A stretch of DNA of 30,177 nucleotides from a virus: positions 1-30,177 of IMG/VR virus record IMGVR_UViG_3300046005_000373; one strand, written 5' to 3'. The translations under genes and the position numbers were made by a program. The notes below the pieces were generated by a model. It made no database searches. It had not been told where the DNA came from and saw only the letters and a program-made list of their open reading frames with translations. This document shows positions 3,007 to 20,663 of the stretch, piece after piece (within the stretch, counting starts at the first letter, position 1; the number at the start of each line of letters is the position of its first letter).

Positions 3007-3675
3007 ATGAATATTTTTGTTATTACATCAATCTTGCGACCTAAGATTGGTATTATTGATTTTGAAATCAGATATCAACAAACACTCAAAACAATCCAAT
3101 CTATTAAACATAAAGCTCCAGGTTCAATCATTCTTTTATTGGATTCATCACCTGAACTAGAAGACTACAAGATTGAACGTTTAAGAAAAGAAGTAGATTA
3201 TTTTATATCTTTATCCAATCATACTCTTGCAATCGATTTAGCAACAAAAGGCTTAAAAAGTCCAGGTGAGTGTTACATTATGATTGTTGCTTTAGATGTT
3301 ATTAGAAATCTGTCATTGACAAACATCAATAGGGTGTTTAAAATTACAGGACGTGCTGAGTTAACCGATAACTTTCATATCGAAGATTATGATAATCCAG
3401 AAATGCAAGGAAAATATGTTTTCAAAACACCTGTCGTTTCTTGGATGACATCACAATTAAAATTGGTAGATACTCGTTTATGGTCGTTTGATTATTCTAT
3501 GTTGGAAGATGCTGATAAATTAATACGTCAAACATACGAAGATTGCATCTCAAAACCACAGTTTGATTTAGAGCATACATATTATAGACTGTTAGATAAA
3601 ACTAAATTATTTGAAAAAGATGTAATTGGATTAACATGCCAATTAGCATCTTGTGGGACAATTATAAATGAATAA
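3007..3675 (+). CDS. Putative glycosyltransferase-like protein
   Basis: A 222-residue soluble protein beginning with a hydrophobic strand (MNIFVITSILRP), an alpha/beta layout and the segment RVFKITGRAELTDNF near residues 110-124. 'K(I)xGR' segments of this kind occur in viral and capsule-associated glycosyltransferase-like proteins. No clear DxD motif is present, so the donor sugar and fold are uncertain. It overlaps the next gene, a family 2 glycosyltransferase, by eight bases, and lies in a run of five sugar-related genes. The context supports a role in building a glycan on the virion, the DNA or the host surface. Confidence 0.5.
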   Translation: MNIFVITSILRPKIGIIDFEIRYQQTLKTIQSIKHKAPGSIILLLDSSPELEDYKIERLRKEVDYFISLSNHTLAIDLATKGLKSPGECYIMIVALDVIRNLSLTNINRVFKITGRAELTDNFHIEDYDNPEMQGKYVFKTPVVSWMTSQLKLVDTRLWSFDYSMLEDADKLIRQTYEDCISKPQFDLEHTYYRLLDKTKLFEKDVIGLTCQLASCGTIINE

Positions 3676-4390
3676 TCCATTAGTGACAATTATCACACCA
3701 ACAATCGGCACAAAGCATTTAGAACAATGTGTCGATTCTGTAGCAAACCAAACATATAAAAATATTCAGCACTTAATAGTTGTTGATGGTAAAGAGCATA
3801 GAAAGAAAGCAGAACAACAAATTCATTCAGATGCTGATGTTTTAGTATTACCATACAACACAGGTCATGACCAATATAATGGTCATCGAATATACGGCGC
3901 CTCTACTTTCTTAGCTAAAGGTGCTTACTATATTTTCTTAGATGAGGATAATTGGTTAGAACCTAATCATGTTGAAAGTTTAGTCAATTCAATAGATAAT
4001 AATGGTTGGGCTTACACCTTACGTAAAATAGTTGACACCGAAGGTAATTACATATGTAATGATGATTGTGAATCACTAGGTAATTGGCAGTCAATTTTAA
4101 ATGATTATTTTGTTGATGTTAATTGTTATATCGTTCGTAGAGATATAGCTTTGAATTTTGCTCCTGGTTGGTATCGTAGAGCTAGACACCCACAAGAACA
4201 ACCGGAAGTGGACCGCTTATTGAGTGGATGGTTAAGACAAAATAATTTCAAAGCAAATTGTACCGGAGATTATACGGTAAATTATCGAGTTGCTAGTCGA
4301 GCGGACTCCGTAACAGGTGAGTTTTTCTTAAAAGGTAATGAATATATGAAACAAAGATTGAACGGAGAATTTCCATGGCGAAAGATTTAA
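3668..4390 (+). CDS. Family 2 (GT-A) glycosyltransferase
   Basis: A 240-residue GT2-type transferase. The N-terminus reads VTIITPTIGTKHLEQCVDSV and continues to NQTYKNIQHLIVVDG, the standard nucleotide-binding start of GT2 enzymes. The metal/nucleotide-sugar motif is FLDEDNWLEP (DED at residues 92-94), and the C-terminal part (DRLLSGWLRQN) is compatible with acceptor binding. It has no membrane anchor, so it probably acts in the cytoplasm. It overlaps both neighbours. Family assignment is strong; donor and acceptor are unknown. Confidence 0.85.
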   Translation: MNNPLVTIITPTIGTKHLEQCVDSVANQTYKNIQHLIVVDGKEHRKKAEQQIHSDADVLVLPYNTGHDQYNGHRIYGASTFLAKGAYYIFLDEDNWLEPNHVESLVNSIDNNGWAYTLRKIVDTEGNYICNDDCESLGNWQSILNDYFVDVNCYIVRRDIALNFAPGWYRRARHPQEQPEVDRLLSGWLRQNNFKANCTGDYTVNYRVASRADSVTGEFFLKGNEYMKQRLNGEFPWRKI

Positions 4391-5247
4391 TTATTGGTGT
4401 ATGTTCTAATTACAAGTTTAACGATGTGTTGCCTTGGGTTAGGTCATCTAAAGAATGTGGTTTCAAAGGTGATGTTGTTTTAGTCACCATTGAAATGGAC
4501 GAAGAAACAAATAAACAGATTGAAGCGGAAGGTGTAATTGTTGTTCGTGCTAAACGAAACAGTGACATGATGATACACATGGAAAGGTTCTATCATGTCC
4601 ATAAGTATTTGTCTGAAAATCCAGATTATGTATATGTCGTTTCTACAGATGTGCGAGATGTAATCTTCCAAAACGACCCGTCTGAATGGTTTGAATTCTT
4701 TACCAAAGGAATCGTTTCTTCGGGTGAAGCAATCTTGATTAAAGATGAGGAATGGAATAGAAATAACATAATCAAAAACTTCGGCGAATATTTCTATAAT
4801 GAATTCAAAGAGAAGATTGTCCAATGTGTTGGTGTCTTAGGCGGGCAATCACATTACATGAAAGATTTGTGTTTTTACATTTATCAAATGTCGCTGAATC
4901 GTCCAGATTGGGTTGCAGACCAAGCAGCTTACAATGTTATTGTTCATAGTAGTCCTTGGAAACAATTAACACACTTTGCTAATTTAGCAGATGGATGGGC
5001 TATAAATGCTCATGTAACCAACTATGACCGTTTGATGGATCACTTCAGCCCCTATCTGTTGGAAGAAAGGCCCGTATTTGAAAATGGACGAGTTAAGGTT
5101 AGAAAAACAGGGCTCGAATTCTATATTGTCCATCAATATGACCGTGTCAAAGAATGGAAGAAATACTATGAAGAAAAATATGGTATAAAAATCAATTCAC
5201 AATATACACCAGATGAAGATGTAATTGTTATTAATACAGGAGTTTAA
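4375..5247 (+). CDS. Putative glycosyltransferase with DVRD motif
   Basis: A 290-residue soluble protein with a GT-A-like beginning (LIIGVCSNYKF, then GFKGDVVLVTIEMD). A candidate nucleotide-sugar/metal motif, VVSTDVRDVIFQND, lies at residues 88-101 with acids at D92 and D95. The later segments GVLGGQSHYMKDLC and DQAAYNVIVHSS resemble acceptor or donor pockets of transferases that add single sugars. The start ATG overlaps the previous gene by 16 bases and follows a GGAG ribosome binding site. The stop is one base from the epimerase start. Glycosyltransferase is the likeliest class; specificity is unknown. Confidence 0.65.
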   Translation: MAKDLIIGVCSNYKFNDVLPWVRSSKECGFKGDVVLVTIEMDEETNKQIEAEGVIVVRAKRNSDMMIHMERFYHVHKYLSENPDYVYVVSTDVRDVIFQNDPSEWFEFFTKGIVSSGEAILIKDEEWNRNNIIKNFGEYFYNEFKEKIVQCVGVLGGQSHYMKDLCFYIYQMSLNRPDWVADQAAYNVIVHSSPWKQLTHFANLADGWAINAHVTNYDRLMDHFSPYLLEERPVFENGRVKVRKTGLEFYIVHQYDRVKEWKKYYEEKYGIKINSQYTPDEDVIVINTGV

Positions 5248-5248
5248 T

Positions 5249-6139
5249 ATGAAAGTTATTGTTACCGGCGGATGTGGATTTATTGGTTCAAATCTGGTTG
5301 ACAAATTGATAGATATGGGTTATGATGTATCAGTAATTGATGATGAATCAGCAACAGCACATGAACGTTTCTATTATAATAAAAAAGCAAGATATTACAA
5401 ATATGATATATGTGATTATGTGGATGTTCGTCCTTTATTTGAAAATGTCCAATATGTTTTCCATTTGGCAGCCGAATCACGTATTCAACCAACATTAGAA
5501 AATCCAATTGGTGCAGTTAAGACCAATACTCTAGGCACTGCTACTATTTTACAATGTGCTAAGGAAGCTGGCGTTAAACGAGTAATGTATTCTTCCACAT
5601 CTTCAGCTTATGGTTTGAAAAATACACCACCATTATCTGAGAATATGATTGAAGACTGTCTAAATCCTTACTCAGTATCTAAAGTTGCTGGTGAGAAATT
5701 ATGTCACATGTATACGGAATTGTTTGGACTGGAAACTATTTCATTCAGATATTTCAATGTGTATGGACCGAGAGAACCTAGACGTGGTCAATATGCGCCA
5801 GTGATTGGTCTATTTTTACGTCAACGGGCAGCTAATGAACCATTGACTGTTGTTGGAGATGGCACACAAAAACGAGATTTTACTCATGTCAATGATGTTG
5901 TACAAGCGAACATCACATGTATGACAGAAGGTAAACCTGGAGAATTATACAATGTTGGCACCGGTACAAATCATTCTGTGTTAGAATTAGCAAACATGAT
6001 TTCTAAAGACATTTCTTTTATTCCTGCTAGACCAGGTGAAGCAAAAGAATCTCTAGCCAATAATGACCGATTAATGGGCCTAGGTTGGAGACCAACTATT
6101 AAACTTGAAGATTATATTAAGGAACAATTGAATGGGTAA
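5249..6139 (+). CDS. NAD-dependent sugar-nucleotide epimerase/dehydratase (extended SDR)
   Basis: A GalE/WbpP-like extended short-chain dehydrogenase of 296 residues, full length for the family. The start is the ATG at 5249, preceded by CAGGAG; an in-frame TTG 24 bases upstream is less likely. The Rossmann motif TGGCGFIGS is at residues 6-14, the HLAAES segment near 72-77, the serine strand MYSSTSSAYG at 113-122, and the catalytic pair is Y141/K145 (NPYSVSK). The RYFNVYGPREPRRGQYAPVI region is typical of UDP-sugar epimerases. It probably supplies an epimerised nucleotide sugar to the flanking transferases. The exact substrate (UDP-glucose, UDP-GlcNAc or another) is not determinable. Confidence 0.93.
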   Translation: MKVIVTGGCGFIGSNLVDKLIDMGYDVSVIDDESATAHERFYYNKKARYYKYDICDYVDVRPLFENVQYVFHLAAESRIQPTLENPIGAVKTNTLGTATILQCAKEAGVKRVMYSSTSSAYGLKNTPPLSENMIEDCLNPYSVSKVAGEKLCHMYTELFGLETISFRYFNVYGPREPRRGQYAPVIGLFLRQRAANEPLTVVGDGTQKRDFTHVNDVVQANITCMTEGKPGELYNVGTGTNHSVLELANMISKDISFIPARPGEAKESLANNDRLMGLGWRPTIKLEDYIKEQLNG

Positions 6140-6944
6140 TATTTCTATTGTAACGGCCTTCTTTGATATCGGCCGAGAAACTTGGACACAAGATAAAGGA
6201 CTTCCACATTATCTGTATCGTCCATTACAAACGTACTTCGACAGGTTTGCTAACATGGCACAACTTGATAATGAAATGACCATTTTTACAACACCAGATT
6301 TGGTTGATAAAGTATGGGAATATCGTAAAGGTAAAGAAGATAAGACAACCGTTACTGCGGTTGATTATGCTTCTGAATTTAAAGATTTACGGTTAGCGAT
6401 TGCTTCGATTCAGACTAATCCGGAATATCAAAAGAAGATTAGTCCAAATCAAATTCGTAATCCGGAATATTGGTCTGCCGATTATGTATTGGTCAACACA
6501 TTGAAAGCTCACTTTGTCAATCGAGCAATCACCAATGGTTTTGCTACTAAAGAATTGGTTGCGTGGGTTGATTTTGGATATTGTCGTAATGTGGAAGAAT
6601 TTATCAAAGGTACAGAATGGAATTATGATTTTGACCCAACTAAGATGACATTGTTTAGATTAAAAGAATTTGACCAAAGTAAATCCATTTTAGATTTAAT
6701 TGTTAATAATGATGTTCATATGACGGGTGGTGCTATTGTTGGTGGCAAAACAGTTTGGCCAACATTTGATTCGTTAGTTCAACACGCATTTAATGAATTG
6801 TATAAACACGATTTGGTCGATGATGACCAAACATTATTGTTAATGGCATCGTTGTTGAAACCGGAAATATTCAAAATATATGATGTTACACACGGAGAAG
6901 ATTGGTTACGTCATAATTCAGTTTTTAATAAATATAATACATAA
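6132..6944 (+). CDS. HtrL/YibB-like (WlaTC-type) putative glycosyltransferase
   Basis: A 270-residue protein whose start, ISIVTAFFDIGRETW, followed by a YF..F..MAQLDNEMTIFT segment, fits the HtrL/YibB family. That family is found in surface-polysaccharide loci and thought to be glycosyltransferase-like. Other matching features are the central VLVNTLKAHFVNRAI helix, the WVDFGYCRN segment that could bind metal or sugar, and MTGGAIVGGK. It overlaps the epimerase by eight bases and closes the sugar module. Its stop codon is embedded in a late-promoter-like box for the next operon. Family assignment is moderate; the reaction is not established from sequence. Confidence 0.65.
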   Translation: MGNISIVTAFFDIGRETWTQDKGLPHYLYRPLQTYFDRFANMAQLDNEMTIFTTPDLVDKVWEYRKGKEDKTTVTAVDYASEFKDLRLAIASIQTNPEYQKKISPNQIRNPEYWSADYVLVNTLKAHFVNRAITNGFATKELVAWVDFGYCRNVEEFIKGTEWNYDFDPTKMTLFRLKEFDQSKSILDLIVNNDVHMTGGAIVGGKTVWPTFDSLVQHAFNELYKHDLVDDDQTLLLMASLLKPEIFKIYDVTHGEDWLRHNSVFNKYNT

Positions 6945-6980: not shown

Positions 6981-8177
6981 ATGAAAAATATAAAACACTT
7001 CCTAAAAGAACAGGCCGAAGGTGAAGGCACAAAACTCAAGCATATTGAGCACCTAGAAGATTTACCGTTAAATTCAGGTAAACAAGGATTGGAACAATCC
7101 GTTGGAGCTTTGAGGCAAGTCCAACAACATATTAAAGCTGGTAGAAAGAATTCGGATTTAACAATGAAACATGATGGTTCGCCAAGTTTAGTTTATGGCC
7201 ATCATCCAGATACGGGTAAGTTTTTTGTTGCTTCCAAATCAGCATTTAATGTAACACCAAAAATCAATTATACTGAAGATGATATACAGAAAAACCACGG
7301 CCATGCTCCTGGTTTAGTTGAAAAGTTAAAATCAGCTTTACAACATTTACCTAAAGTTGTTCCATCTAAAGGTGTATATCAAGGCGATGTCATGTTTACA
7401 CATAATGACATTGACAAGCATGCTGGTAAATTGCATTTTAGACCAAATACAATTAAATATTCTGTTCCAGAAAAGTCAACTGAAGGCCAACAAATTGGCA
7501 AAGCTAAGTTAGGATTATATACTCATACCGAATATAGGGGTAAAGATTCAGGTTCAATGAACGCCCACTATGACCCCAATATGAGTGATTTTAAAAATCA
7601 TCCAGATGTGTATCATAGGGAACCTGGCCATGACACATCAAAAGTTAAATTATCTGATGAACATGAACACAGATTGAATCATCATATAAATTCAGCATTA
7701 GCCACTTATAGCAAACATGGCGATGATATGTTTAATTCTTTAGATAAGAAAATTGGCAAATCTAACATAAAAGACCACACTAAAACATATATCAATAGTA
7801 CAGTTAGAACCGGTGAAACGCCAAATCCTGAAGGTTTATCTAATCATTTAATTAAACATTACGGTAAACAAATTGATAGTTTGAAAACAGATAAATCTAA
7901 AAATGTTAAATCTGATGAATTGAAATCTCATTTAAATCATGTTGAAGACAACAAACATCATTTTGAAGGTTTCTTTAAAATGCACCATCATTTACAACAG
8001 GCTAAAAACGTATTAGTTGGCGCATTATCTCAACACACCGGAGGCCTAGAACATAGTTACAATAATAAAAAAGTCAAACCTGAAGGTTTTGTTGTAAACC
8101 ACAAAGGAACTCCTATCAAACTAAATGATAGGGCTGAGTTTAATAAATTAAATTTCGAAAGAAGTGCAGAAAGATGA
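6981..8177 (+). CDS. Capsid-targeted ligase-like nucleotidyltransferase (predicted)
   Basis: A 398-residue protein starting MKNIKHFLKE|Q, which resembles the T4 capsid-targeting leader with an (L/I)xE cleavage site at residues 8-10. The body carries an order of motifs like covalent nucleotidyltransferases (DNA/RNA ligases). KHDG at 63-66 (motif I, candidate AMP-accepting lysine K63) sits in LTMKHDGSPSLVYG. A motif III-like GVYQGDVMF is at 131-139 and a IIIa-like LGLYTHTEY at 177-185. EGFVVNHKG (motif IV) is at 368-376 and IKLNDRAEFNKLN (motif V) at 379-391. The long insert between IIIa and IV is rich in His and Lys. Similar proteins recur in T4-like aquatic phages under DUF names. Adenylation activity and ligase function are inferred from motifs only. 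The gene overlaps the next start (ATGA). Confidence 0.6.
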   Translation: MKNIKHFLKEQAEGEGTKLKHIEHLEDLPLNSGKQGLEQSVGALRQVQQHIKAGRKNSDLTMKHDGSPSLVYGHHPDTGKFFVASKSAFNVTPKINYTEDDIQKNHGHAPGLVEKLKSALQHLPKVVPSKGVYQGDVMFTHNDIDKHAGKLHFRPNTIKYSVPEKSTEGQQIGKAKLGLYTHTEYRGKDSGSMNAHYDPNMSDFKNHPDVYHREPGHDTSKVKLSDEHEHRLNHHINSALATYSKHGDDMFNSLDKKIGKSNIKDHTKTYINSTVRTGETPNPEGLSNHLIKHYGKQIDSLKTDKSKNVKSDELKSHLNHVEDNKHHFEGFFKMHHHLQQAKNVLVGALSQHTGGLEHSYNNKKVKPEGFVVNHKGTPIKLNDRAEFNKLNFERSAER

Positions 8178-9253
8178 TAATAAAATTTAGTACATATATT
8201 GATGAATCTAAAAGATTTGAGAATTACTATCTCAATCTTTTGTCTGAAGAAAAAGCAATCGATGAATCTGGATCAAATAATGATACAAAAGGAAAGTTGC
8301 ATGAACTCTTAGTTGGATATCATTTAAATGGTGGCAAACACATGGACAAACATGTGGATGAATATAAAAATACTCCACAACAAGCACATGATTTATTAAT
8401 GAAAAATGTTAGTGAAGACCAGTATAAAAAAATATACGATAGAGCTAAGGAAACAGCTGACCATATTAAATCTGAATTAAAAAAATCAGGCAAAACAATT
8501 TCTCATGTACATTGGACATCCAAACCTGGTGATATTGAAGCTTCAACGAGTGTGCCTTCTACACAGAAACAGGATGCTTCTGATATTATGTTACATACGG
8601 TTGATAAAAAAGGTAAAAAAGGTTATACTGGCGTTAGTTTAAAAGTATCCGATGAATACAGTAAACATGTTCCGGTTTCAAATGCGGGCCAATCGGCTAT
8701 GTATCCTGGTGTCGACAATGATATTAAAGCTCATAAAGAGAAACTGTATAAATCTTTTCCTGAATTAAAGAATTTGACTAATGAAAAATTAAGAAAAGAA
8801 TGGTTAAAATCTGATCCAGAACGAAAAGATAAAATTAATAATATAAATTTAGCTCATAGACGAGTTTTAACTGCAAAAGCTCATGAACATTTATTGAGTA
8901 TGGGGAATCATGAATTGATAGACCATGTTAAAACACATGTGTTGCAGAGTAATCCAACACCATTACAACAAGCTGGCCATGAACATATTCGCCATACTGT
9001 TTATGCTGGAAAGAAAAAAGAAGGCGGCGGAAATAAATTTCATTCATATGACCCTGCGGAACATTTTAAAAATATATTAGATGGTAGTAAAAAAATTCAT
9101 GTAACTAATCCTTCTGGTACCACACAATTGCATTATCATTATGAAGATGAAAACGGCAATTTGCATCATTTTGCTTCACAACGATTCAAATCTAATTCAA
9201 ATAGCGATCCATTCAGTTCAATGAAATCATCAGGAATTGCTGCCGGAGACTAA
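8174..9253 (+). CDS. Capsid-targeted PD-(D/E)XK nuclease-like protein (predicted)
   Basis: A 359-residue protein with the leader MIIKFSTYIDE|S, ending in an IxE prohead-protease-like site, plus further LSE and IDE sites at residues 23-31. The body has a possible PD-(D/E)XK core. A conserved-looking acidic helix, GKLHELLVGYHL (E44), comes first. A D-containing strand, DASDIML (D137), is followed after a hairpin by GVSLKVSD, where S155-L156-K157 could be the (D/E/S)xK element. The rest is rich in His, Lys and Asn and probably flexible. The nuclease assignment is by motif spacing and is tentative. It overlaps the ligase-like gene by four bases and abuts the HAD gene. Confidence 0.5.
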   Translation: MIIKFSTYIDESKRFENYYLNLLSEEKAIDESGSNNDTKGKLHELLVGYHLNGGKHMDKHVDEYKNTPQQAHDLLMKNVSEDQYKKIYDRAKETADHIKSELKKSGKTISHVHWTSKPGDIEASTSVPSTQKQDASDIMLHTVDKKGKKGYTGVSLKVSDEYSKHVPVSNAGQSAMYPGVDNDIKAHKEKLYKSFPELKNLTNEKLRKEWLKSDPERKDKINNINLAHRRVLTAKAHEHLLSMGNHELIDHVKTHVLQSNPTPLQQAGHEHIRHTVYAGKKKEGGGNKFHSYDPAEHFKNILDGSKKIHVTNPSGTTQLHYHYEDENGNLHHFASQRFKSNSNSDPFSSMKSSGIAAGD

Positions 9254-9871
9254 ATGAAAAACTTCAAAAATTTTATCACTGAATCATCTGGTGGTCTACA
9301 TATGTTTGATGTAGATGATACTCTTTTCCATACTACTGCTCAAATTCATGTTAAAGACAAATCAGGTAAATCGGTTCAAACATTAAGTAATAGTGAATTC
9401 AATACACATTCATTACCTAAAGACCATCATTACGATTTTAGTGAATTCAGAGATGCTGATAAATTTAATAAAGAATCTAAACCAATCTCTAAAATGATTG
9501 ATAAAATTAAAAAAGTTCATAAGAAGGTTCGTGGAAAAGAAGGAAGTAAGGTCATACTAAATACAGCAAGGGCTGACTTTGATAATAAAGAAAAGTTCTT
9601 AGATAAGTTCAGACAACACGGTATTGACATTGATAAGATTCATGTTGAACGTGCTGGTAATATTCCTGGAGATGAACACCCAGCTGAGAAGAAAGCACAA
9701 GTTGTGAGAAATCATCTTGCTAGAAATGATTATAAACACGTTAGTTTATATGATGATAGTACAAGTAATTTAAATAGGTTGTTGAAAATGAAACAAGAAT
9801 ATCCTCTTGTTAAATTTCACGCATATCATGTTCAACCAAATGGAAGTGTAAAGAAACATAACAATGAGTAA
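9254..9871 (+). CDS. Capsid-targeted HAD-superfamily phosphatase
   Basis: A 205-residue protein with the leader MKNFKNFITE|S, an IxE-type site at residues 8-10. It then has all four HAD motifs. Motif I is FDVDDTLF (nucleophile D19, acid/base D21) and motif II is LNTARAD (T104). The motif III lysine is K146 or K147 in AEKKAQVV, and motif IV is LYDDST (D167/D168). A small cap-like insert lies between motifs I and II. The layout resembles polynucleotide 3'-phosphatase or 5'-nucleotidase domains, such as that of T4 Pnkp, but the substrate is not readable. It begins directly after the nuclease-like gene's stop and overlaps the kinase-fusion gene by eight bases, so the set is probably coordinately made. 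Confidence 0.8.
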   Translation: MKNFKNFITESSGGLHMFDVDDTLFHTTAQIHVKDKSGKSVQTLSNSEFNTHSLPKDHHYDFSEFRDADKFNKESKPISKMIDKIKKVHKKVRGKEGSKVILNTARADFDNKEKFLDKFRQHGIDIDKIHVERAGNIPGDEHPAEKKAQVVRNHLARNDYKHVSLYDDSTSNLNRLLKMKQEYPLVKFHAYHVQPNGSVKKHNNE

Positions 9872-11714
9872 AATTAAATCCTTTATTGAACTTATGGAAG
9901 AAGAAACCAAATCAGTAGCAGTCTTGTTTGGTCGGATGAATCCGCCTACAAAGGGCCATGAAGAAAATGTCAATGGCCTAAAAGACTTAGCTAAGAAACA
10001 CAACGCTGACCATTTGGTTGTGGCTTCTCGTTCTCACGACCCCAAAAAGAATCCATTATCTCCAGAAGATAAAGAGAAACACTTAAAACGGGCATTTCCA
10101 GGTACCAATATTAAAGTTGCTACCAAAGAACAACCAACAATTTTACATCATGCATCTGCATTGAGTGGTCAAGGATATTCTCATTTACATGTAGTTGCTG
10201 GTTCCGACCGAGTCGATGAATACAAACGATTACTGAATCAATACAATGGAGTTCCAGGTAAACACGGAACTTACAATTTTAAAAAGATTACAGTTCAATC
10301 TACAGGCGAAAGAAAACAAGGTGTATCTGGTACAGATATGCGTAATCATGTTAAGAATAATGATTATAATTCTTTCAAATCGAATTTACCATCATCTACA
10401 CAAAATAACGAGAAGCATTCTAAAGAATTATTCCATGACGTTAAAAAAGGTATGGGCATCCATGAAAATGTAAATCGTGGGATGTTTAAAGCTTTATTCT
10501 TAGTTGGTGGTCCGGGTTCAGGTAAAGATGTTATCATACATGAAGCCGTAGCTGAACGAAATGCTGTAGAAATCAATTCCAACAAAGCATATGATTTCTT
10601 ATCTGATAAAAAGAAACTATCAGAAGAAACTAAAGACCACCAATACAATGCTATTCGTAATCGGTCAGCATTGGTCATCAATGGCGCATCTGATGATAAA
10701 GATAAAATTACTTCCATTAGAGAAGAATTAGAAGAATTGGGTTATACTTCAATGATGGTGTTCGTCACTACTACAAATGAAGTATCTCAAAATAGAAATA
10801 ACCAACATTCGAGAGTTATTTCTGAACAAATTAGAAACGAAAAGTGGGTAAAATCTCAAGAGAATTTAAATCACTTCTACGATGAGTTTGAATACTTTTT
10901 AGAATTCGATAATTCAGTAAATTTACAAAACTCAAACATTCTAATTAAAGAGGCTAAACAGTCTGAAATCAGTGAAATCTGTAATGAGATATCCTATTTC
11001 TTTAAAACTAAAGCTTATAACGAGAGTGCTACCAATTGGTTACGCTCACATGGAAAAATAAACATCAACGAAGATGTTAATACATTATTTGAAAAGGAAC
11101 TACACCATGACAACTATACTGACATTCGTAAAAAATATAATCACAAAAATTACTCAAGTCTTAAAGCCAAACATAGCCCATCCGCCAAAGGCGTGCGAGC
11201 AGAAAACAATGCCCCAGTCGACCAAATGCTCAGAAAAGCCGGCAAAATCGATGACGTCCGAGACGGCGACATCCGCGGCAATAACGGCTACGCCTTTAGA
11301 ACCTACGAAGAAACGAGGCAGGAACAGACGGAGCCGACGCTCAAAATCAACCCAGAGCCAAAAGAACCAAAGTTCAACACCGACAAAGAAAGTCCAAAAC
11401 TCAAACGAAAAGCGGGGGTAAATCTATTACCTGGCAAATCAATTAACGGCACTGGTGTTGGTCCAACATACGATACTCGCCAACAAGGCGGAGTATATCC
11501 AATGGGTGGATTGGGAAATACAACATATCGTGAAAGTTTCAATTCATTTAGAACGAAACTAAAACAAGAATCTATTGATGACCCAGGTGCTTCAGATATG
11601 GGGACATTTGGTGGTATGGGTAACGGTGCCAATAAAGAACCATTACAAACACAATTAGATAAATTAGCAACAACGTCAGAAAATAAACCAACAAAAAAGA
11701 AAAGAAATAAATAG
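9864..11714 (+). CDS. Capsid-targeted nucleotidylyltransferase-P-loop kinase fusion
   Basis: A 616-residue fusion. The leader is MSKIKSFIELME|E, with an LxE site at residues 10-12. Residues 17-170 form a cytidylyltransferase-fold domain with FGRMNPPTKGH (22-32, a variant HxGH box with T in place of the first H), VVAGSDR (110-116) and VSGTDMR (154-160, the ISxTxxR-type box). Residues 207-360 form a P-loop kinase domain with Walker A GGPGSGKD (215-222; Asp instead of Ser/Thr), then LVINGASDD and RNNQHSR segments as in Pnkp or zeta-toxin-like kinases. The domain order recalls NadR (NMN adenylyltransferase plus ribosylnicotinamide kinase), but the substrate is open. Residues 380-616 look disordered; residues about 433-518 use strikingly GC-rich codons. 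The C-terminus ends in Lys-rich sequence. Confidence 0.72.
   Translation: MSKIKSFIELMEEETKSVAVLFGRMNPPTKGHEENVNGLKDLAKKHNADHLVVASRSHDPKKNPLSPEDKEKHLKRAFPGTNIKVATKEQPTILHHASALSGQGYSHLHVVAGSDRVDEYKRLLNQYNGVPGKHGTYNFKKITVQSTGERKQGVSGTDMRNHVKNNDYNSFKSNLPSSTQNNEKHSKELFHDVKKGMGIHENVNRGMFKALFLVGGPGSGKDVIIHEAVAERNAVEINSNKAYDFLSDKKKLSEETKDHQYNAIRNRSALVINGASDDKDKITSIREELEELGYTSMMVFVTTTNEVSQNRNNQHSRVISEQIRNEKWVKSQENLNHFYDEFEYFLEFDNSVNLQNSNILIKEAKQSEISEICNEISYFFKTKAYNESATNWLRSHGKININEDVNTLFEKELHHDNYTDIRKKYNHKNYSSLKAKHSPSAKGVRAENNAPVDQMLRKAGKIDDVRDGDIRGNNGYAFRTYEETRQEQTEPTLKINPEPKEPKFNTDKESPKLKRKAGVNLLPGKSINGTGVGPTYDTRQQGGVYPMGGLGNTTYRESFNSFRTKLKQESIDDPGASDMGTFGGMGNGANKEPLQTQLDKLATTSENKPTKKKRNK
11161..11417 (+). 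other. Local GC-rich, C-ending-codon patch inside a coding region
   Basis: About 257 bases in the 3' third of the fusion gene differ sharply from the surrounding AT-rich DNA. Codons such as GCC, GGC, GAC, AAC, ATC, GTC and CTC dominate, while the flanking codons end in A or T. The reading frame stays open through the patch and the protein continues into a typical phage C-terminus. This suggests a recently acquired or recombined in-frame segment, or a segment under different nucleotide selection. Boundaries are judged by eye, within about 20 bases. Confidence 0.7.
11706..11713 (+). promoter_or_regulatory. Late-promoter-like box AATAAATA
   Basis: AATAAATA, a one-base variant of the T4 late box TATAAATA, overlaps the TAG stop of the preceding gene and lies 40 bases before the ATG at 11753. 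That start has a strong AGGAG ribosome binding site. The placement over a stop codon matches the copies at 6940 and 14115. Confidence 0.5.
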
Positions 11715-11752
11715 GTAATTAAATGTTCACAGCGAACTAACAGGAGAATAAA

Positions 11753-13666
11753 ATGTTTCAAAAATTTGGTAAAAGTATCCCACAGTCATTAGTAGACGCC
11801 GTTTCTGGCATCATGTCAGAAGCAAAAGCTGATGATTTACCTCCAATCGATAAAGATGCGGCGGCCGCTCGTAAAGCTCGTCAAGCTCGATTAGACGCTA
11901 TCGAAGATGCTAAGGCGGAAAAAGATTCTGGTGAAAAGAAATCTTCTGTTGTTCGTAAAGTTGCTGGTTCTGCTTATGGTGGCGCTAAACAAAAAGATCC
12001 AGAAGATATGGAAGAATCTGCTGGCAATCCAGGTCCAGTGAGAAAACACATTCCAACACCAATGCAAAATCCAAGCAAAGAAGATATGGCAGCGTGGCAT
12101 GCAAAACAAAAAGAAAAACATGCTTACGAACCTAAAAAAGAAGAATTGATTGGCGGCCAAAAGAAACTAGACAAGAACCATAACGGCAAACTAGATGCCG
12201 ATGATTTTAAAAAACTTCGTAAAGAAGAGGAAGACCTTGAAGAAGCCAAAGATATAGTGACTAAAGATGCTTCAGGTAAAGTAACTTCTTGGTCACATGA
12301 AGGTGATTGGAAGAAATCAACAGCTAAAAAGAATCCAAAAGGTATTGCACCACACCTAAGTGACCTTGCTCGCCGCAAAACAATTAAAATGGCTAAAGAA
12401 ACAATGATGGGTAAAGCCGGTTGTACTTCAGAAGAAGCAGAAATTGAAGAATCACGTGGCCATAAAATCATTGCAAATAAATTAGCACAAATTGACCGTA
12501 TGAGTTCTGGTGTTGCACCTGACCATAATACTAATGTTCAAAGCACTAAAGATAAAATCAAAGACGCAAGTAACATTGGTAAAGTTGAAATTGTCACTCA
12601 AAAAGATACCACAATATCAGGTAAGGACAATGAAGCTGACCAAATGGAAACAAAACACAAATTGAATAAAATTTCACATGGTTACGGTAATGTTGTTCAT
12701 AAAGAAGAAGTTGTAAATGAATTAACCAAAAAGACTTTGAGTTCATATATTAAAAAAGCATCCAGTTCAAGTGATGAGCGCTCTGCTTCAAACTTAGCAT
12801 CGAAAGCCGCGGCAAAATTAGCAGCTGATGATGGTAAAGATGATGGTGAGAAGGATGATATGAAATCATTCCAACGTTCTAAAGGAATTGGTCGTGCTGT
12901 TGACCGTTTAGCTAAAGAAGAAGTTGAATTGACCGAAAGTCACAATTTCACTCCTAATGTGGATTCACATGTGAAATCATTAGGTCACGGTAAAATTGGT
13001 TTCGTTATGGACCAACAAAAAGATGGTTTAATTGCTATACATCACCAAGACGGCGGTAAACACCATGTAGCTATTTTCCATAAAGACAAATTGGTTCACA
13101 CTTCTACACATCCTGATTTTGAAACTGCTAGTGGTCAAGCTCACACATCATTGACAACTAAAAAAGGTATTAAAGCTTTGTCATTGAATGAAGAAGTTGA
13201 AGAGGTGGATGAGGCTCTATTTGATAGACTACCTTCTAGTAAAGCAGGCCAAAACTATATTGATAAAAAACGGGCTGAACGTGATGTAGAACATAAAAAA
13301 CAAGACCCAAAAATGTCAAAAATGTATGCTAAGAATATGGTAGATACACATAAAGCTTCTAAGAAAGCTGCAGAACGTGGCATCAAAAAGGATCCAGAAG
13401 ATTTTGGTTGGAAAGTTCGTAACGGTGTTCAACGTGGTAAACTACCAGAAGAAGTTCAAATTGATGAAACAGCTACACTAAATCAATACATCAAATCTTT
13501 AGGTTATGACCCAGAGCATTTAGATACCAACAAGAAAGTAATGTATTCAAAAACTAATGCTTTTAAATCATATGCCGCAAGACAAGAAGCGTTATATGAC
13601 GCCGGCCAAAAAGGTACACAAGATATTGAAGCCGGTATGTCTCCAAGTGCCACAGCTAGAGGTTAA
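11753..13666 (+). CDS. Modular virion-associated protein with EF-hand and protease-site-like linkers
   Basis: A 637-residue, highly charged, mostly flexible protein preceded by AGGAG. The N-terminus (MFQKFGKSIPQSLVDAV) leads to a possible cleavage site, IMSE|A, at residue 23. A textbook EF-hand calcium loop, DKNHNGKLDADD, occupies residues 140-151. Further modules begin at about 165 (DIVTKDASGKVTSW), 234 (RGHKIIANKL), 323 (LTKKTLSSYIKKA), 396 (HNFTPNVDSHV), 488 (LFDRLPSSKAG) and 573 (TLNQYIKSLGYDP). Nearly every module is preceded by an acidic linker ending in xxE: LEE|A, IEE|S, VNE|L, LTE|S, VDE|A, IDE|T. Similar modular proteins occur in T4-like aquatic phages. A head-interior or scaffold-like role and processing by the prohead protease are inferred. 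The last module is related to the start of the next gene. Confidence 0.7.
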   Translation: MFQKFGKSIPQSLVDAVSGIMSEAKADDLPPIDKDAAAARKARQARLDAIEDAKAEKDSGEKKSSVVRKVAGSAYGGAKQKDPEDMEESAGNPGPVRKHIPTPMQNPSKEDMAAWHAKQKEKHAYEPKKEELIGGQKKLDKNHNGKLDADDFKKLRKEEEDLEEAKDIVTKDASGKVTSWSHEGDWKKSTAKKNPKGIAPHLSDLARRKTIKMAKETMMGKAGCTSEEAEIEESRGHKIIANKLAQIDRMSSGVAPDHNTNVQSTKDKIKDASNIGKVEIVTQKDTTISGKDNEADQMETKHKLNKISHGYGNVVHKEEVVNELTKKTLSSYIKKASSSSDERSASNLASKAAAKLAADDGKDDGEKDDMKSFQRSKGIGRAVDRLAKEEVELTESHNFTPNVDSHVKSLGHGKIGFVMDQQKDGLIAIHHQDGGKHHVAIFHKDKLVHTSTHPDFETASGQAHTSLTTKKGIKALSLNEEVEEVDEALFDRLPSSKAGQNYIDKKRAERDVEHKKQDPKMSKMYAKNMVDTHKASKKAAERGIKKDPEDFGWKVRNGVQRGKLPEEVQIDETATLNQYIKSLGYDPEHLDTNKKVMYSKTNAFKSYAARQEALYDAGQKGTQDIEAGMSPSATARG

Positions 13667-13667
13667 T

Positions 13668-14123
13668 ATGGAACAAATTAATGAATACAGTAAAGAGGTC
13701 GTAGATAGATATTTAAAATCTATGGGTTACGACCCTCAACATATTGACCGAGATAAACGTATGGCTTTCACTAAAACTATTCGGTTTCAACAGTTCGCTC
13801 AACGTATGGGTGAATCGGTTGTTTTATCCAAGCCAGCACAGGTCATTAAAGAAATCTTTAAAAAGAAAAGAATGGTTGAGGATTTATATGACCATGAAAA
13901 AGATGATAAAGATGGTACGACATACGGTAAGAAACCAAAATTAAATAGCGCCAAGGAAGAAGATAACATTGGCGATGACAAGACTCAGGCAGCTGCTGTA
14001 TTGAGTGGTGGAACTACTTTAACGGGTCAGAAAAGAGATACCGTTTCGATAGACCCGGTTATTAAAAAACCAAAACAAGGTACGCCTAGCTCAGATACAG
14101 GCGATATTAAATATAATAAATAG
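13668..14123 (+). CDS. Small protein sharing a module with the upstream modular protein
   Basis: A 151-residue protein. The chosen ATG lies one base after the previous stop; a longer in-frame opening to 13557 would run through the upstream gene and is unlikely. Residues 15-47 (RYLKSMGYDPQHIDRDKR onward) match residues 579-611 of the preceding protein (QYIKSLGYDPEHLDTNKK onward), so one module has been duplicated or split off. The rest is charged and low in complexity (DDKDGTTYGKKPKL, SIDPVIKKPKQGTP) and likely disordered. Function is unknown; probably a virion-associated partner of its neighbour. Confidence 0.7.
   Translation: MEQINEYSKEVVDRYLKSMGYDPQHIDRDKRMAFTKTIRFQQFAQRMGESVVLSKPAQVIKEIFKKKRMVEDLYDHEKDDKDGTTYGKKPKLNSAKEEDNIGDDKTQAAAVLSGGTTLTGQKRDTVSIDPVIKKPKQGTPSSDTGDIKYNK
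14115..14122 (+). promoter_or_regulatory. Late-promoter-like box AATAAATA
   Basis: AATAAATA overlaps the TAG stop of the preceding gene and lies 34 bases before the ATG at 14157, which has a strong TAAGGAG ribosome binding site. With the terminator at 14866 it would make the Ig-like protein gene a self-contained late transcription unit. Confidence 0.55.
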
Positions 14124-14156
14124 TAATACAAATCGCAAGATTAAGGAGAAATTTAA

Positions 14157-14849
14157 ATGGCTTTAAACCAAGGTAATTATGATTCAGCTGCAAACACCCC
14201 ATTGTGGGCAGCGGCAACCGTTGAAAGAGCACCAACAACAGCAGAAGTTGCAACACTATATGGTAATACATCATCAGGTGCTTTCTTTGCTGGAGAAACA
14301 GTCGGCGTTTTCGCTGTAGATAGTAACGAAGCACTAGTAAACGGCCATGTAGGTTCTGGTTGGGTTAGACGAGTGACAGGTTCAGGTGGTCGTGCTGGAC
14401 GAGTAACAGAAGAACTTCTTTCAGCTGTTGCTGTATTCCGTACAGACAGTGCTGCAGATGATGCTGTTTATCCGGATGCTAAAATTTCAATTGGAACACA
14501 ACCTTCAGCTGCTACAGTTCGTGCTAATACCGCTAATGCTAATACTGCTACATTCACAGTAGTTGTATCAGATGTACAACCAGTTGGTTCTTCTGTATCA
14601 TACGTATGGCAAATGAATACTGCTGACGGTGCATTAGGTTGGACAAACATCTTAAATGGTGCTGGTACACAACGTGGTAACACAACATTTGCTGGTAACA
14701 CATCTGCTACACTATCTGTATCACCTGCAAATACAAGTGCAAACTTACTAGTGTTCCGTGTAACATCTACTGCTACTCCACCAGCAGGTATCACAAATGC
14801 TACAGCAACATCAGTAACATCTTCAAACGCTCAAATTACAATCTTGTAA
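14157..14849 (+). CDS. Ig-like domain virion structural/decoration protein
   Basis: A 230-residue protein rich in Ala, Thr, Ser, Val and Asn with almost no Lys, unlike its charged neighbours. The first 110 residues form an unknown N-terminal domain (start MALNQGNYDSAANTPLW). Residues about 111-230 read as an immunoglobulin-like beta sandwich: ISIGTQPSAATV, then TATFTVVVSDV, VSYVWQMN, a WTNI turn, SATLSVSP, LVFRVTSTA and SNAQITIL. The tryptophan strand and alternating Thr/Val strands fit Ig/Big-type domains on phage capsids and tails. A strong ribosome binding site, a late-type promoter box and an efficient terminator suggest high late expression. Capsid decoration is a guess; a tail-associated role is also possible. 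Confidence 0.72.
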   Translation: MALNQGNYDSAANTPLWAAATVERAPTTAEVATLYGNTSSGAFFAGETVGVFAVDSNEALVNGHVGSGWVRRVTGSGGRAGRVTEELLSAVAVFRTDSAADDAVYPDAKISIGTQPSAATVRANTANANTATFTVVVSDVQPVGSSVSYVWQMNTADGALGWTNILNGAGTQRGNTTFAGNTSATLSVSPANTSANLLVFRVTSTATPPAGITNATATSVTSSNAQITIL

Positions 14850-14865
14850 TAAGTGTGTACTAAAT

Positions 14866-14891
14866 AAAGGGGACCTCGGTCCCCTTTTTTT
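14866..14891 (+). terminator. Rho-independent terminator
   Basis: A 9-bp stem (AAAGGGGAC paired with GTCCCCTTT) closes a CTCG loop and runs into seven T residues. It is 17 bases after the stop of the Ig-like protein gene and is the clearest intrinsic terminator in the window. Confidence 0.93.
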
Positions 14892-14909
14892 AACTTAAGA
14901 ATAATAATA

Positions 14910-15296
14910 ATGTTTGATGACCTAAATGATGATAACTTTTTAATATATGCCATGAAATCTTATGTTTCACCGCATTGTATTATGTCTGAGTTCGAAGGTG
15001 ATATGAAACGGACTAAATACTTGAAGAAGTTGTTTCGTAGGTTTAAAGCATCTGGTGACTTAAAAGAACGTTTAATATTAAATCATATAATTTTAATATA
15101 CAATGTCTTTGATGCTGAATCGGCAACCAGAATATTGTTTTATAGAACAGATGAGCGAGATTACGATATATTGAAAACATTTCTAATATATCTAAATCTT
15201 ATGCCAACCCGTATTAATGGTATCAGAGGCAAGAATATTGAATCCTCTGATATTATGTTAGACCTATCAATTGCAGAAATATTGAGGAAACTATGA
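14910..15296 (+). CDS. Conserved T4-like phage protein, function unknown
   Basis: A 128-residue, helical protein beginning MFDDLNDDNFLIYAMKSY. Notable segments are MKRTKYLKKLFRRFK, LKERLILNHIILIYNVFDAE and LFYRTDERDYDILKTFLIYL. I recognise this pattern as a conserved small protein of aquatic T4-like phages, usually near head genes, without a known function. It has no capsid-targeting leader. It follows the terminator, and its last four bases overlap the next gene (ATGA), so it heads the next short operon. Confidence 0.7.
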   Translation: MFDDLNDDNFLIYAMKSYVSPHCIMSEFEGDMKRTKYLKKLFRRFKASGDLKERLILNHIILIYNVFDAESATRILFYRTDERDYDILKTFLIYLNLMPTRINGIRGKNIESSDIMLDLSIAEILRKL

Positions 15297-15679
15297 AATC
15301 ATTTAAAGCACATTTAGAAGAATCCTGTTGGAAAGGATATAAAGCCATTGGTGTAAAAGACAAAGGTGGCCGTAAAGTTCCTAATTGTGTTCCCGTTTCA
15401 GAACAACCAACTGAACCAGAATCTAAACTCACACACAAACGTGGTCATCAAATTTCAAGACATGTTCATAGTTTCAAACCTATTCCTTCTATTAAAACAG
15501 AAGATGTTGATAAAAAAGATACAATCACTTTTGATATACCGTTGTTAATTCGTGTATTGGAATTAACTAGAGAAGAAATCAAAACCGATGCAGATTTACA
15601 TCGTGTCGTTGAACGATTGATTGATATCCGCAACAAAGGTGTATTGACAATGGATGATTACGAGGATATTGCAAAATGA
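15293..15679 (+). CDS. Predicted capsid-targeted protein, function unknown
   Basis: A 128-residue protein with the leader MKSFKAHLEE|S, matching the T4 internal-protein targeting form with an LxE site at residues 8-10. It continues with CWKGYKAIGVKDKGGRKVPN and a CVPVSE segment, a recurrent phage motif in which a Gly/Lys-rich turn is flanked by cysteines. The C-terminal half (about residues 80-128) is a helical domain ending VVERLIDIRNKGVLTMDDYE. Function is unknown. It overlaps both neighbours by four bases in a run of three leader-bearing genes. Confidence 0.65.
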   Translation: MKSFKAHLEESCWKGYKAIGVKDKGGRKVPNCVPVSEQPTEPESKLTHKRGHQISRHVHSFKPIPSIKTEDVDKKDTITFDIPLLIRVLELTREEIKTDADLHRVVERLIDIRNKGVLTMDDYEDIAK

Positions 15680-15978
15680 AATCGTTTAATGAATTTTTAA
15701 ATGAATCTGCGGCCTGGACTCGTTCAGCTGGGAAGAATCCCGAAGGTGGATTAAATCAAAAAGGTGTCGACTCTTATCGTAGAGAGAATCCAGGTTCAAA
15801 ATTAAAAACAGCCGTTACTACTAAACCATCTAAATTGGATCCTGATAGTAAATCTGCTAAGCGTAGAAAATCATTCTGTGCTAGAATGGGTGGAATGAAG
15901 AAACGCCTGACTTCTGCAAAAACTGCAAAGGATCCAGATTCTCGTATTAATAAAGCTCTAAGAAAGTGGAACTGCTAA
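15676..15978 (+). CDS. Predicted capsid-targeted basic protein (conserved phage family)
   Basis: A 100-residue, very basic protein with the leader MKSFNEFLNE|S, an LxE site at residues 8-10. The rest (AWTRSAGKNPEGGLNQKG, then VDSYRRENPGSKLKTAV, KSAKRRKSFCARMGGMKK and DPDSRINKALRKWNC) matches a very conserved small family seen in many phages. I recall this family as a DUF, but am not certain of the number. The high Arg/Lys content and invariant-looking C and W residues suggest nucleic-acid binding. If packaged, it could coat or accompany the DNA. It overlaps its neighbours by four bases and one base. Confidence 0.75.
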   Translation: MKSFNEFLNESAAWTRSAGKNPEGGLNQKGVDSYRRENPGSKLKTAVTTKPSKLDPDSKSAKRRKSFCARMGGMKKRLTSAKTAKDPDSRINKALRKWNC

Positions 15979-16322
15979 TGAAAACATTTAAAAATTACAT
16001 CATAGAAATGGATAAATCACAAGACCCACCTGGTCGAGATGACCCATATGATTACGGTAAAGGTAAATGGCACAAAGGCAAAGCGTTAACTAAAGATAAA
16101 GCAATTAATACTGCTCATGATGTATTAAGCAAAGTTTTCAATGAACCAAAAAAGAAAGAAATCAAAGAAGATGGTGTTGTATCTAGTGGTTCGGCCGGTC
16201 CAACTAACGTAACTGGCCCCCAATCAGGTACAGACCCAATTAGTGCTACAGCTAGACGTATGGATAATATACGTAAAGTAAGAAAAACAAAATTATTTAC
16301 TAGAAAATTACCCCAAGCATAA
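15978..16322 (+). CDS. Predicted capsid-targeted small protein, function unknown
   Basis: A 114-residue protein. The ATG at 15978, sharing TAATG with the previous stop, gives the leader MKTFKNYIIE|M with an IxE site at residues 8-10. An upstream GTG at 15966 would bury this leader and is not preferred. The body is low in complexity and basic (DDPYDYGKGKWHKGKALTK, then GPTNVTGPQSGTDPISATAR), ending in a Lys/Arg-rich tail. Function is unknown. It is the last of the leader-bearing genes before the lysis cassette. Confidence 0.6.
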   Translation: MKTFKNYIIEMDKSQDPPGRDDPYDYGKGKWHKGKALTKDKAINTAHDVLSKVFNEPKKKEIKEDGVVSSGSAGPTNVTGPQSGTDPISATARRMDNIRKVRKTKLFTRKLPQA

Positions 16323-18999: not shown

Positions 19000-20001
19000 A
19001 TGAGTGTTTATATTGATAGAAAGTTCCTGCTACAAGTATCTTCAAAACTTCAAAGGTTTTCACAGAAGAAAACGGACCTCTATAATTTTAGATGTCCGTT
19101 CTGTGGCGACTCTCAAAAGAATAAATCTAAATGTCGTGGATTTATTTACCGTAAGAAAAATGATTACTTCTTTACTTGCCACAATTGCAGTGAAGGACAC
19201 ACATTCTACAATTTCTTAAATCATGTTGAACCTTCAATTGTCAAAGAATACCAATTAGAACGGTATAAAGACGGCCAGACAGGTAATCACAACTATCCAA
19301 AACCAGAAACAATGGTGAACATACCCAAACCTGTATTCAAAGAAAGAATCAAGTTAGATAGTATATCATCATTACCTGACGGACATATTGCTAAAGACTA
19401 TGTTATAAATCGAATGATACCTAAAGATAGGTGGTCTGATTTATATTTTACACCGGATTTTGCTGAATTCGTTGCGAGTTATGGTATTGAAAAACAACTC
19501 AACAAAGATGACCCTCGGTTAATTATTCCATTCTACGATAAAGATAAGAACTTGTTTGCCTTTCAAGGCCGAGCTTTGGCTGAGTCTAAATTAAAATACA
19601 TAACGGTAAAAATCAATGAAGATGCTAAAAAACTGTATGGTTTAGATAAAGTTGACATAAGTAAAAGGATATACGTGGTTGAAGGCCCTATCGATTCCAT
19701 GTTTTTAGATAATTGTATTGCTACGGCTGACGCAACGTTAGCTTTCGCTTCTGAGGTGTCCGATAATATTGTTTTAGTTAACGATAATGAACCTAGAAAT
19801 AAAGAAATCATAAAACAAATATCTAATAACATTAAGAATGGTTATAGTGTGGTTATTTGGCCAAATACATTGACACATAAAGATATTAATGATATGATTA
19901 TGTCTGGTATGGATAAGAAAGAAATAACAGTACTAATTGATGAACATACATATACAGGTCTTAGGGCTGAATTTGAATTAAATAATTGGAGAAAAGTATG
20001 A
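19000..20001 (+). CDS. 61: DNA primase, T4 gp61-like
   Basis: Primase making RNA primers for lagging-strand synthesis with the gp41 helicase. It has 333 residues, compared with about 342 in T4. The N-terminal zinc finger is CPFCGDSQKNKSKCRGFIY with C32, C35 and CHNC (C60, C63). The Toprim part includes EGPIDSMFLD and VLVNDNEPRNKEI, and the end, KDINDMI, parallels KDVNDMI of T4. IPKDRW and LIIPFYDKDKNLFAFQGRAL also match T4. The ATG at 19000 gives the T4-like N-terminus; the in-frame TTG at 18988 is unlikely. The ribosome binding site is weak. It overlaps thyX by ATGA. Confidence 0.95.
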   Translation: MSVYIDRKFLLQVSSKLQRFSQKKTDLYNFRCPFCGDSQKNKSKCRGFIYRKKNDYFFTCHNCSEGHTFYNFLNHVEPSIVKEYQLERYKDGQTGNHNYPKPETMVNIPKPVFKERIKLDSISSLPDGHIAKDYVINRMIPKDRWSDLYFTPDFAEFVASYGIEKQLNKDDPRLIIPFYDKDKNLFAFQGRALAESKLKYITVKINEDAKKLYGLDKVDISKRIYVVEGPIDSMFLDNCIATADATLAFASEVSDNIVLVNDNEPRNKEIIKQISNNIKNGYSVVIWPNTLTHKDINDMIMSGMDKKEITVLIDEHTYTGLRAEFELNNWRKV

Positions 20002-20663
20002 AGGTGAGTTTAATATCTAGTTCACAGGGTCTTGATGGCAAGAACCTATTGGACCAAGTGGCATACACAGCACGTGTATCTAATCCTGCAAATCAAAACA
20101 ACACAGAAACCTCAGAGAAGTTAGTTCGTTATCTGATTAAACACCATCATTGGAGTCCATTAGAAATGGTCTCATTATGTTTAGAAATCGAAACAACCCG
20201 TGACATCGCTCGCCAAATCTTGCGACATCGCTCATTCTCATTTCAAGAGTTCTCACAACGATATGCGGATCCAACTAATGATTTGGGATTTGAAATACGA
20301 GATGCTAGATTACAAGATTTGAAGAATAGACAAAATTCGGTTGAATTGGATGTTGAATCTGATGGCCATGCTATTATTGCTGGTACATGGAGAAATAAAC
20401 AAGAACAATTAATCAATCTCACGAAAGAGACTTATAATTGGGCTATTCAGAATGGTATTGCTAAAGAACAAGCTCGATCCGTTCTACCTGAAGGCAACAC
20501 ATCTAGTCGTATGTATATGAATGGAACATTACGTTCATGGGTCCACTATATACAACTGAGGTCTGGTGTTGAAACACAAAAAGAACACCGTGAAATTGCA
20601 TTAGCTTGTGCTGAAGCAATTAAACCTATTTTCCCTATGATTGAGGAGTTTATAAGTGAGTAA
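19998..20663 (+). CDS. thyX: Flavin-dependent thymidylate synthase ThyX
   Basis: Makes dTMP from dUMP using FAD, NADPH and methylenetetrahydrofolate. It has 221 residues, the usual ThyX length. The signature RHR-x7-S is read as RHRSFSFQEFSQR at residues 76-88. HHWSPLEMV (51-59) matches the conserved substrate-binding H.S..E segment, and EQARSVLPEGNTSSRMYMNGT covers the C-terminal dUMP/FAD region. The ATG overlaps the primase stop, giving translational coupling; an upstream TTG is not preferred. It stands with MazG-like and ribonucleotide reductase genes in a deoxynucleotide supply operon. Confidence 0.96.
   Translation: MKVSLISSSQGLDGKNLLDQVAYTARVSNPANQNNTETSEKLVRYLIKHHHWSPLEMVSLCLEIETTRDIARQILRHRSFSFQEFSQRYADPTNDLGFEIRDARLQDLKNRQNSVELDVESDGHAIIAGTWRNKQEQLINLTKETYNWAIQNGIAKEQARSVLPEGNTSSRMYMNGTLRSWVHYIQLRSGVETQKEHREIALACAEAIKPIFPMIEEFISE

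Follow-up and report, generated by a model that had tools for sequence, protein, structure and literature searches.

A modular protein of a marine T4-like phage predicted to be an internal-head polyprotein with serial prohead-protease joints

A 637-residue protein, P0001, encoded by a stop-free open reading frame (ORF) in a virus record of 30,177 bases (the whole stretch of DNA analyzed, hereafter the window), is predicted from its sequence and its relatives to be an internal-head polyprotein of a marine T4-like phage that is cut by the prohead protease. We put the probability of this reading at roughly 70%. The window is a fragment and was assigned to a marine T4-like phage because its DnaB-type helicase has its best matches in cyanophages (67.5% identity to S-CREM1). 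In the proposed mechanism, the gene would be translated into a single chain of some eight small modules, most of them basic, and the N-terminal piece would probably direct P0001 into the prohead core. At head maturation, a prohead protease of the T4 gp21 type would cut each acidic joint after its E, with a joint consensus that would lie near EE-x-E-x-(L/I)-(D/N)-E|A/S/G (the bar marks the proposed cut). The freed modules would stay with the packaged DNA, presumably by binding it, and ejection into the host may follow. As each joint would be a short portable cutting site, modules could be gained, lost, swapped or moved to leader-bearing genes.

A preliminary description of the gene had placed seven xxE joints in P0001, and E was confirmed at P1 of each (residues 23, 164, 233, 323, 395, 487 and 572; joint letters in Table 1), as was the strict (L/I)xE form of those at 164, 233, 395 and 572. 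An eighth joint, at residue 88, was absent from that list. The strict form is satisfied by four of the eight joints, which counts against a cut polyprotein, and further xxE triplets lie within two of the linkers (LNE at 480, VEE at 484 and LPE at 566). The acidic linkers described before the modules were also found: eight of the nine pieces end acidic, with a net charge of −2 to −6 over the last nine residues, and eight of the nine have a basic core (pI 9.1–10.0), the exception being the last piece. As for the EF-hand product that had been proposed, an EF-hand-like loop is present at residues 137–155, in the piece ending at 164, but the match is weak (Pfam EF-hand_1, E = 0.0058, below the cut-off).

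Table 1 P0001, its predicted pieces and neighboring genes with leader-like starts or related modules, in window coordinates.
Feature	Position	Strand	Basis or remark
P0001, modular, predicted internal-head polyprotein, 637 aa	11753..13666	+	Translation, joints, homologues
Piece 1, residues 1-23, ends MSE|A	11753..11821	+	Conserved in L153, L154; possible targeting leader
Piece 2, residues 24-88, ends MEE|S	11822..12016	+	Joint scan
Piece 3, residues 89-164, weak EF-hand-like loop, ends LEE|A	12017..12244	+	Pfam, joint scan
Module A, residues 165-233, ends IEE|S	12245..12451	+	Relatives
Module B, residues 234-323, ends VNE|L	12452..12721	+	Also in L153 after LEE|S
Module C, residues 324-395, LSKxTLxSY family, ends LTE|S	12722..12937	+	Also P-SSM4 GC119
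Module D, residues 396-487, ends VDE|A	12938..13213	+	Homologue comparison
Module E, residues 488-572, ends IDE|T	13214..13468	+	Common to L002-L004, L012
Module F, residues 573-637, C-terminal	13469..13663	+	C-terminal in L153, L154 too
Separate gene starting with module F paralogue (38-42% identity)	13668..14123	+	Alignment
Gene MKSFKAHLEE|SCWKGYK..., targeting-type leader directly before CWxGY module	15293..15679	+	Sequence
Gene MKSFNEFLNE|SAAWTR..., targeting-type leader before DUF6321 module	15676..15978	+	Pfam, sequence
Gene with leader MKTFKNYIIE|M	15978..16322	+	Sequence
DUF6267 protein, leader-like N-terminus MKNIKHFLKE	6981..8177	+	Pfam, sequence
Protein of unassigned family, leader-like N-terminus MIIKFSTYIDES	8174..9253	+	Sequence
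Weak polynucleotide-kinase family match, leader MKNFKNFITES	9254..9871	+	Profile search, sequence
Cytidylyltransferase-like protein, leader-like N-terminus	9864..11714	+	Profile search, sequence

In tblastn searches of 50,697 phage records, neither whole P0001 (at 1e-5) nor its residues 323–489 and 488–637 found a match. Against Pfam, PHROGs and NCBIfam, P0001 gave nothing beyond EF-hand and ANTAR matches below threshold and a PHROG match of 28 residues, with no enzyme or peptidase match among them; by Pfam, the DUF6321 domain, which recurs in the relatives described below, is absent from P0001. A sequence search of the PDB with P0001 and DUF6321 gave no match. AlphaFold, run on the single sequence, modeled P0001 with a mean pLDDT of 50, and in this low-confidence model module D contains four strands and helices. 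The DUF6321 model (51 rows) reached a mean pLDDT of 84 and a pTM of 0.47 and has five helices, one of them at leader residues 4–10. It matched no PDB fold (best E 9.9), and its viral matches were DUF6321 proteins, one of which is named Virion protein of S-SCSM1 (517 aa). No prohead protease was seen in the 30,177 bases of the window, from which the head-gene cluster is absent; this counts against the reading.

The preliminary description had suggested looking among homologues for linkers that are kept while modules shuffle, and this is what the relatives display. One locus (L001) carries a 99% copy of P0001 from another sample. L153 (693 aa) and L154 (893 aa), both more distantly homologous, have the first piece of P0001 at their start and module F after IDE|T at their end, and the modules in between are of other kinds and in another order than in P0001. 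LEE|S, LDE|K, IDE|G, IDE|L and IDE|T are among the joints of L153, and L154 has LDE|A, LNE|G, LSE|G, VDE|T, INE|T, VDE|S and IDE|T; for each protein alone, the site count exceeds the shuffled mean but not the shuffled maximum. L012, with a cytidylyltransferase 70% identical to that of the window, has the module order C, E, A and then C again, with xxE joints. In L002 and L003, the DNA flanking the modular gene is 94–98% identical on both sides, and the modular proteins themselves, of 851 and 762 aa, are near-identical outside a few segments: one module is present in one virus only, with its end at (V)DE|AVGTS, one is swapped directly after SVQVDE|, and the C-terminal tails also differ. At 24 of the 25 distinct places where module C occurs internally, E stands immediately before the module, and P-SSM4 GC119 carries a relative of module C after KEEIVTE|L. 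The pairing of P0001 with the adjacent module-F-paralogue gene is also kept in L153 and L154, and F-type modules (LxxYLxxxGxNP) occur in tandem within a single chain at L017:7231-8733 and L079:7554-9551.

Across relatives, module boundaries were found to coincide with putative protease-type joints. Alignment starts with at least five HSPs lay within 8 residues of [LIVMF]xE[ASTGVL] in 41% of 249 cases, versus 14.2 ± 2.1% at random. High-identity breakpoints, counted after near-duplicates had been collapsed (452 to 146), fell at most 10 residues from a joint motif in 73% of 89 cases on the N side (versus 28.7 ± 4.6%) and near a joint motif in 51% of 57 cases on the C side (versus 30.2 ± 5.8%). 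Antisense or overlapping ORFs were excluded from both tests, and the HSP-based boundary tests also omitted near-duplicates at 90% identity. The boundary test was narrowed to HSPs spanning at most half of both proteins; an earlier, wider version over all proteins gave a diluted 23% versus 14%. Many boundary rows come from DUF6321, and boundary and P3 rows are related by descent, which makes p-values too small, so the effect size is the more meaningful quantity.

Five module families were then anchored by residues inside the module, and E was sought just before it. E was found at 112 of the 135 places inside chains and at 17 of the 32 at N-termini; the 23 internal places without E in the searched interval count against the reading. 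P3 was L or I at 58 of the 112 internal joints (52%), versus 14% of 3292 background E residues of the same proteins, and P1′ was A, G or S at 51% versus 22%. P2 was mostly D, N or E, and P5, P7 and P8 were acidic more often than background (joints fewer than four residues from the protein start were dropped from this profile). T4 gp21 cleaves after L/I-X-E, according to the available part of PMC9026906, and the profile supports the prediction that internal joints follow this preference for L/I at P3, module A excepted. In 17 of 17 listed ORFs displaying the junction, several of them near-copies, E|A or E|S stands before module A, whose relatives retain E|A or E|S with mostly K or T at P3, outside the T4 rule, which counts against the reading. 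The loci L125–L144 form a module A group of this kind (such as DEKDE|A and GETDE|A, with K or T often at P3), and their joints would possibly suit a protease with a different P3 preference.

The alternative that survives best, although we regard it as unlikely, is that P0001 is a modular protein of the virion, internal or structural, that is never cut, its joints serving as flexible spacers or as docking peptides, repeated along the chain, for the prohead core. Recombination at joints would then merely reflect linkers that tolerate breaks. Domains can be exchanged harmlessly at the linkers of any multidomain protein, and the broken P3 rule at module A joints also fits an uncut chain. Neutral spacers would, however, need neither the excess of L/I at P3 nor that of A/G/S at P1′, and nothing would require them to hold E at the same residue as the leaders of separate genes.

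That correspondence became apparent when the same modules were compared in different genes: N-terminal leaders and internal joints are equivalent before the same module, with E at the same place. The DUF6321 module follows the leader MKSFNEFLNE|SAAWTR in the window versus the joint KEETQNE|SAAWTR in S-P4 and VNE|GAAWT in P-SSM2. The CWxGY module has its own gene in the window and lies inside a chain after KSVDE|ACWKGYK in AG-345-E15, and the GSLHKWF module occurs N-terminally as MKTFEQFTE|GSLHKWF versus MNE|GSLHKWF in chain. The first piece of P0001 itself ends in IMSE|A, where P3 is M, not L or I. Leader-like starts, a pattern defined post hoc, are found in 7 of the 11 genes at 6981–16322 versus 1 of the 28 other listed genes. 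This cluster is predicted to encode virion-carried enzymes and small proteins; it includes the DUF6267 gene, a cytidylyltransferase with a P-loop part and the kinase-like, DUF6321 and CWxGY genes. Elsewhere in the window, a run of glycosyltransferase-like and sugar-epimerase-like genes, recognized by eye, lies at 3007–6944 between the helicase and the predicted head-protein cluster, and an FAD-dependent thymidylate synthase (TIGR02170) lies at 19998–20663 between primase and nrdA.

The distribution of DUF6321 likewise argues against neutral spacers, in that E is mostly missing from loci without T4-like genes. DUF6321 is the C-terminal module of modular structural proteins in cyanophages and was found in 516 phage records, chiefly from cyanophages and Pelagibacter phages, often inside long modular proteins. 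The best 80 of 597 confirmed loci were used, a sample therefore biased to close relatives, and 51 of the 80 gave a distinct scorable row. Among these best 80 of 597, the joint E was present in all 33 of those having at least two T4-like gene matches and in 3 of the 15 without any (Fisher 6.5e-9 between these two groups), and in 2 of 3 with one such match. The three E-bearing loci without T4-like matches are L052, where a contractile tail sheath gene was found, L063 and L070. Three E-less loci (L041, L065 and L067) have head-gene matches of other PHROG families, including the phrog_371 major head protein in L065, and no head-gene match was found in other E-less DUF6321 loci. A leaderless DUF6321 module occurs in the T7-like phage P-SCSP1k and three Pelagibacter phages, and leaderless copies in non-T4 viruses were noted at L110–L113, L041, L051, L056, L065, L067, L069 and L072. 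The module thus moves between quite different virus groups, and since it exists without a joint in other viruses, cutting is not required for every module.

Published mass spectrometry shows that modular relatives of P0001 (S-CREM2 gp160 and gp137) are virion proteins. Table 3 of PMC10665884 lists gp136, gp137, gp154, gp155, gp156 and gp160 as detected in S-CREM2 virions, with seven peptides for gp160, four for gp137, eight for gp136, three for gp154 and five for gp155. These lists establish presence in the virion and are silent on cutting at joints; identification from peptides with no cleavage reported in the available part of that source would also suit an uncut protein. By sequence, gp160 has WF, CWxGY and DACYxKV modules and an ISE|G joint, gp137 has DUF6321 at its end, and leaders are present in gp154, the cytidylyltransferase (MKNFSSFLTE|A), and gp136 (MQTFSMFFSE|D). 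The gene order cytidylyltransferase, modular protein, primase, nrdA is common to the window, S-CREM2 and P-SSM4, and gp160, like P0001, sits between the virion cytidylyltransferase and primase-nrdA-nrdB. Cytidylyltransferase is among the newly detected virion proteins of Sullivan et al. 2010 (PMC3037559, in the part available). In the records of P-SSM2, S-SM2, P-SSM4 and S-ShM2, the note 'similar to Synechococcus phage S-SM1 protein' stands on GC119, gp13–15, gp18 (missing from gp18 in S-ShM2) and cytidylyltransferase and not on terminase, primase or nrdA; the note may mark S-SM1 virion proteins. Near the N-terminal ends of the major capsid proteins of S-CREM2, S-SM1 and P-TIM68 lie LTE|A, LTE|T and LME|A, which we infer by analogy with T4 to be cut sites. 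The preliminary reading of P0001 as a virion polyprotein is therefore supported by module shuffling, joint preference and relatives in virions, and the polyprotein part of it is what we still infer.

A much less probable alternative is a scaffold-like core protein that, like T4 gp22, is shredded at many sites and leaves the head without lasting products. There is precedent in the degradation of T4 gp22, gp67 and gp68 to small peptides by gp21 (available part of PMC9958956) and in the long SPN3US propeptides that are cut several times (available part of PMC10052503). The modules considered here are instead conserved and recur as separate leader-bearing genes, modular relatives were detected in S-CREM2 virions, and cyanophages have a separate gp22.

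Strict (L/I)xE sites in P0001 are at chance level and not enriched, with six [LI]xE against a shuffle mean of 4.98 and 37.7% of 20,000 shuffles reaching six. The looser [LIVM]xE[ASTGLV] occurs nine times versus 3.50 in shuffles (reached by 0.7%) and, with at least two acidic residues at P4–P9, eight times versus 0.90 (0 of 20,000); this last pattern is post hoc, defined after the sites were seen, so weight was put on the independent tests. An ordinary lysine/glutamate-rich protein with meaningless chance xxE sites would give a strict count equal to that of shuffles, as observed, but is scarcely credible against the breakpoint, junction and leader tests and the module boundaries found at joints in relatives (L002/L003, L153 and L154).

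The internal-head polyprotein proposed for P0001 has its nearest known mechanism in the T4 internal proteins and its nearest known idea in polyvalent proteins (PMC5512222). According to the available parts of PMC9026906 and PMC9958956, T4 IPI-III and Alt have short leaders ending in L/I-x-E, enter the prohead core and are cut after E by gp21, and the neighbors of P0001 in the window carry such leaders. Each T4 internal protein has its own gene and one N-terminal cut (Alt also a C-terminal one), as described there, whereas P0001 has many modules in one chain with serial joints; tblastn of the 50,697 phage records at 1e-5 gave no sequence similarity of P0001 to T4-type internal proteins. The T4-GC119 or DUF6321 'structural protein' of S-SM1, P-SSM2, P-SSM4 and S-P4 resembles P0001 in being modular, with xxE joints and a place in virion gene clusters; unlike GC119, P0001 is without DUF6321, which is a separate gene in the window. 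Polyvalent proteins combine several domains per virion-borne chain and are compared by their authors with polyproteins; they carry enzyme domains and some an embedded peptidase (PMC5512222, available part). In Pfam, PHROGs and NCBIfam, P0001 showed neither a set of recognized effector or enzyme domains nor a peptidase, and it would be cut in trans. In SPN3US and phiKZ, a gp21-type protease cuts after E at A-x-E or S/A-x-E, and multiple cuts, several in some propeptides, remove propeptides; a gene yielding several lasting modules was not found in the available parts of these sources (PMC10052503, PMC5694885 and PMC9026906).

In the literature searched, mostly outside subscription papers, we found neither a paper on DUF6321 nor one describing shuffled modules separated by serial prohead-protease joints. 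A cassette system of this kind, with head polyproteins, portable protease sites and recombination at joints, is probably widespread in marine T4-like phages. In such a system, small proteins that are DNA associated or injected would be added, lost, swapped or moved to stand-alone genes with a targeting leader, and the capsid-maturation protease would do the cutting in trans, which would make it a prokaryotic-virus counterpart of polyproteins. Long modular proteins of the DUF6321 type rank among those virion proteins of abundant marine viruses that lack an explanation. If the joints are cut, a single gene would deliver a changeable set of small proteins along with the DNA, and the very variable length of the modular proteins would be explained. 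The released modules would then be predictable from sequence alone, which would indicate candidate effectors of early infection.
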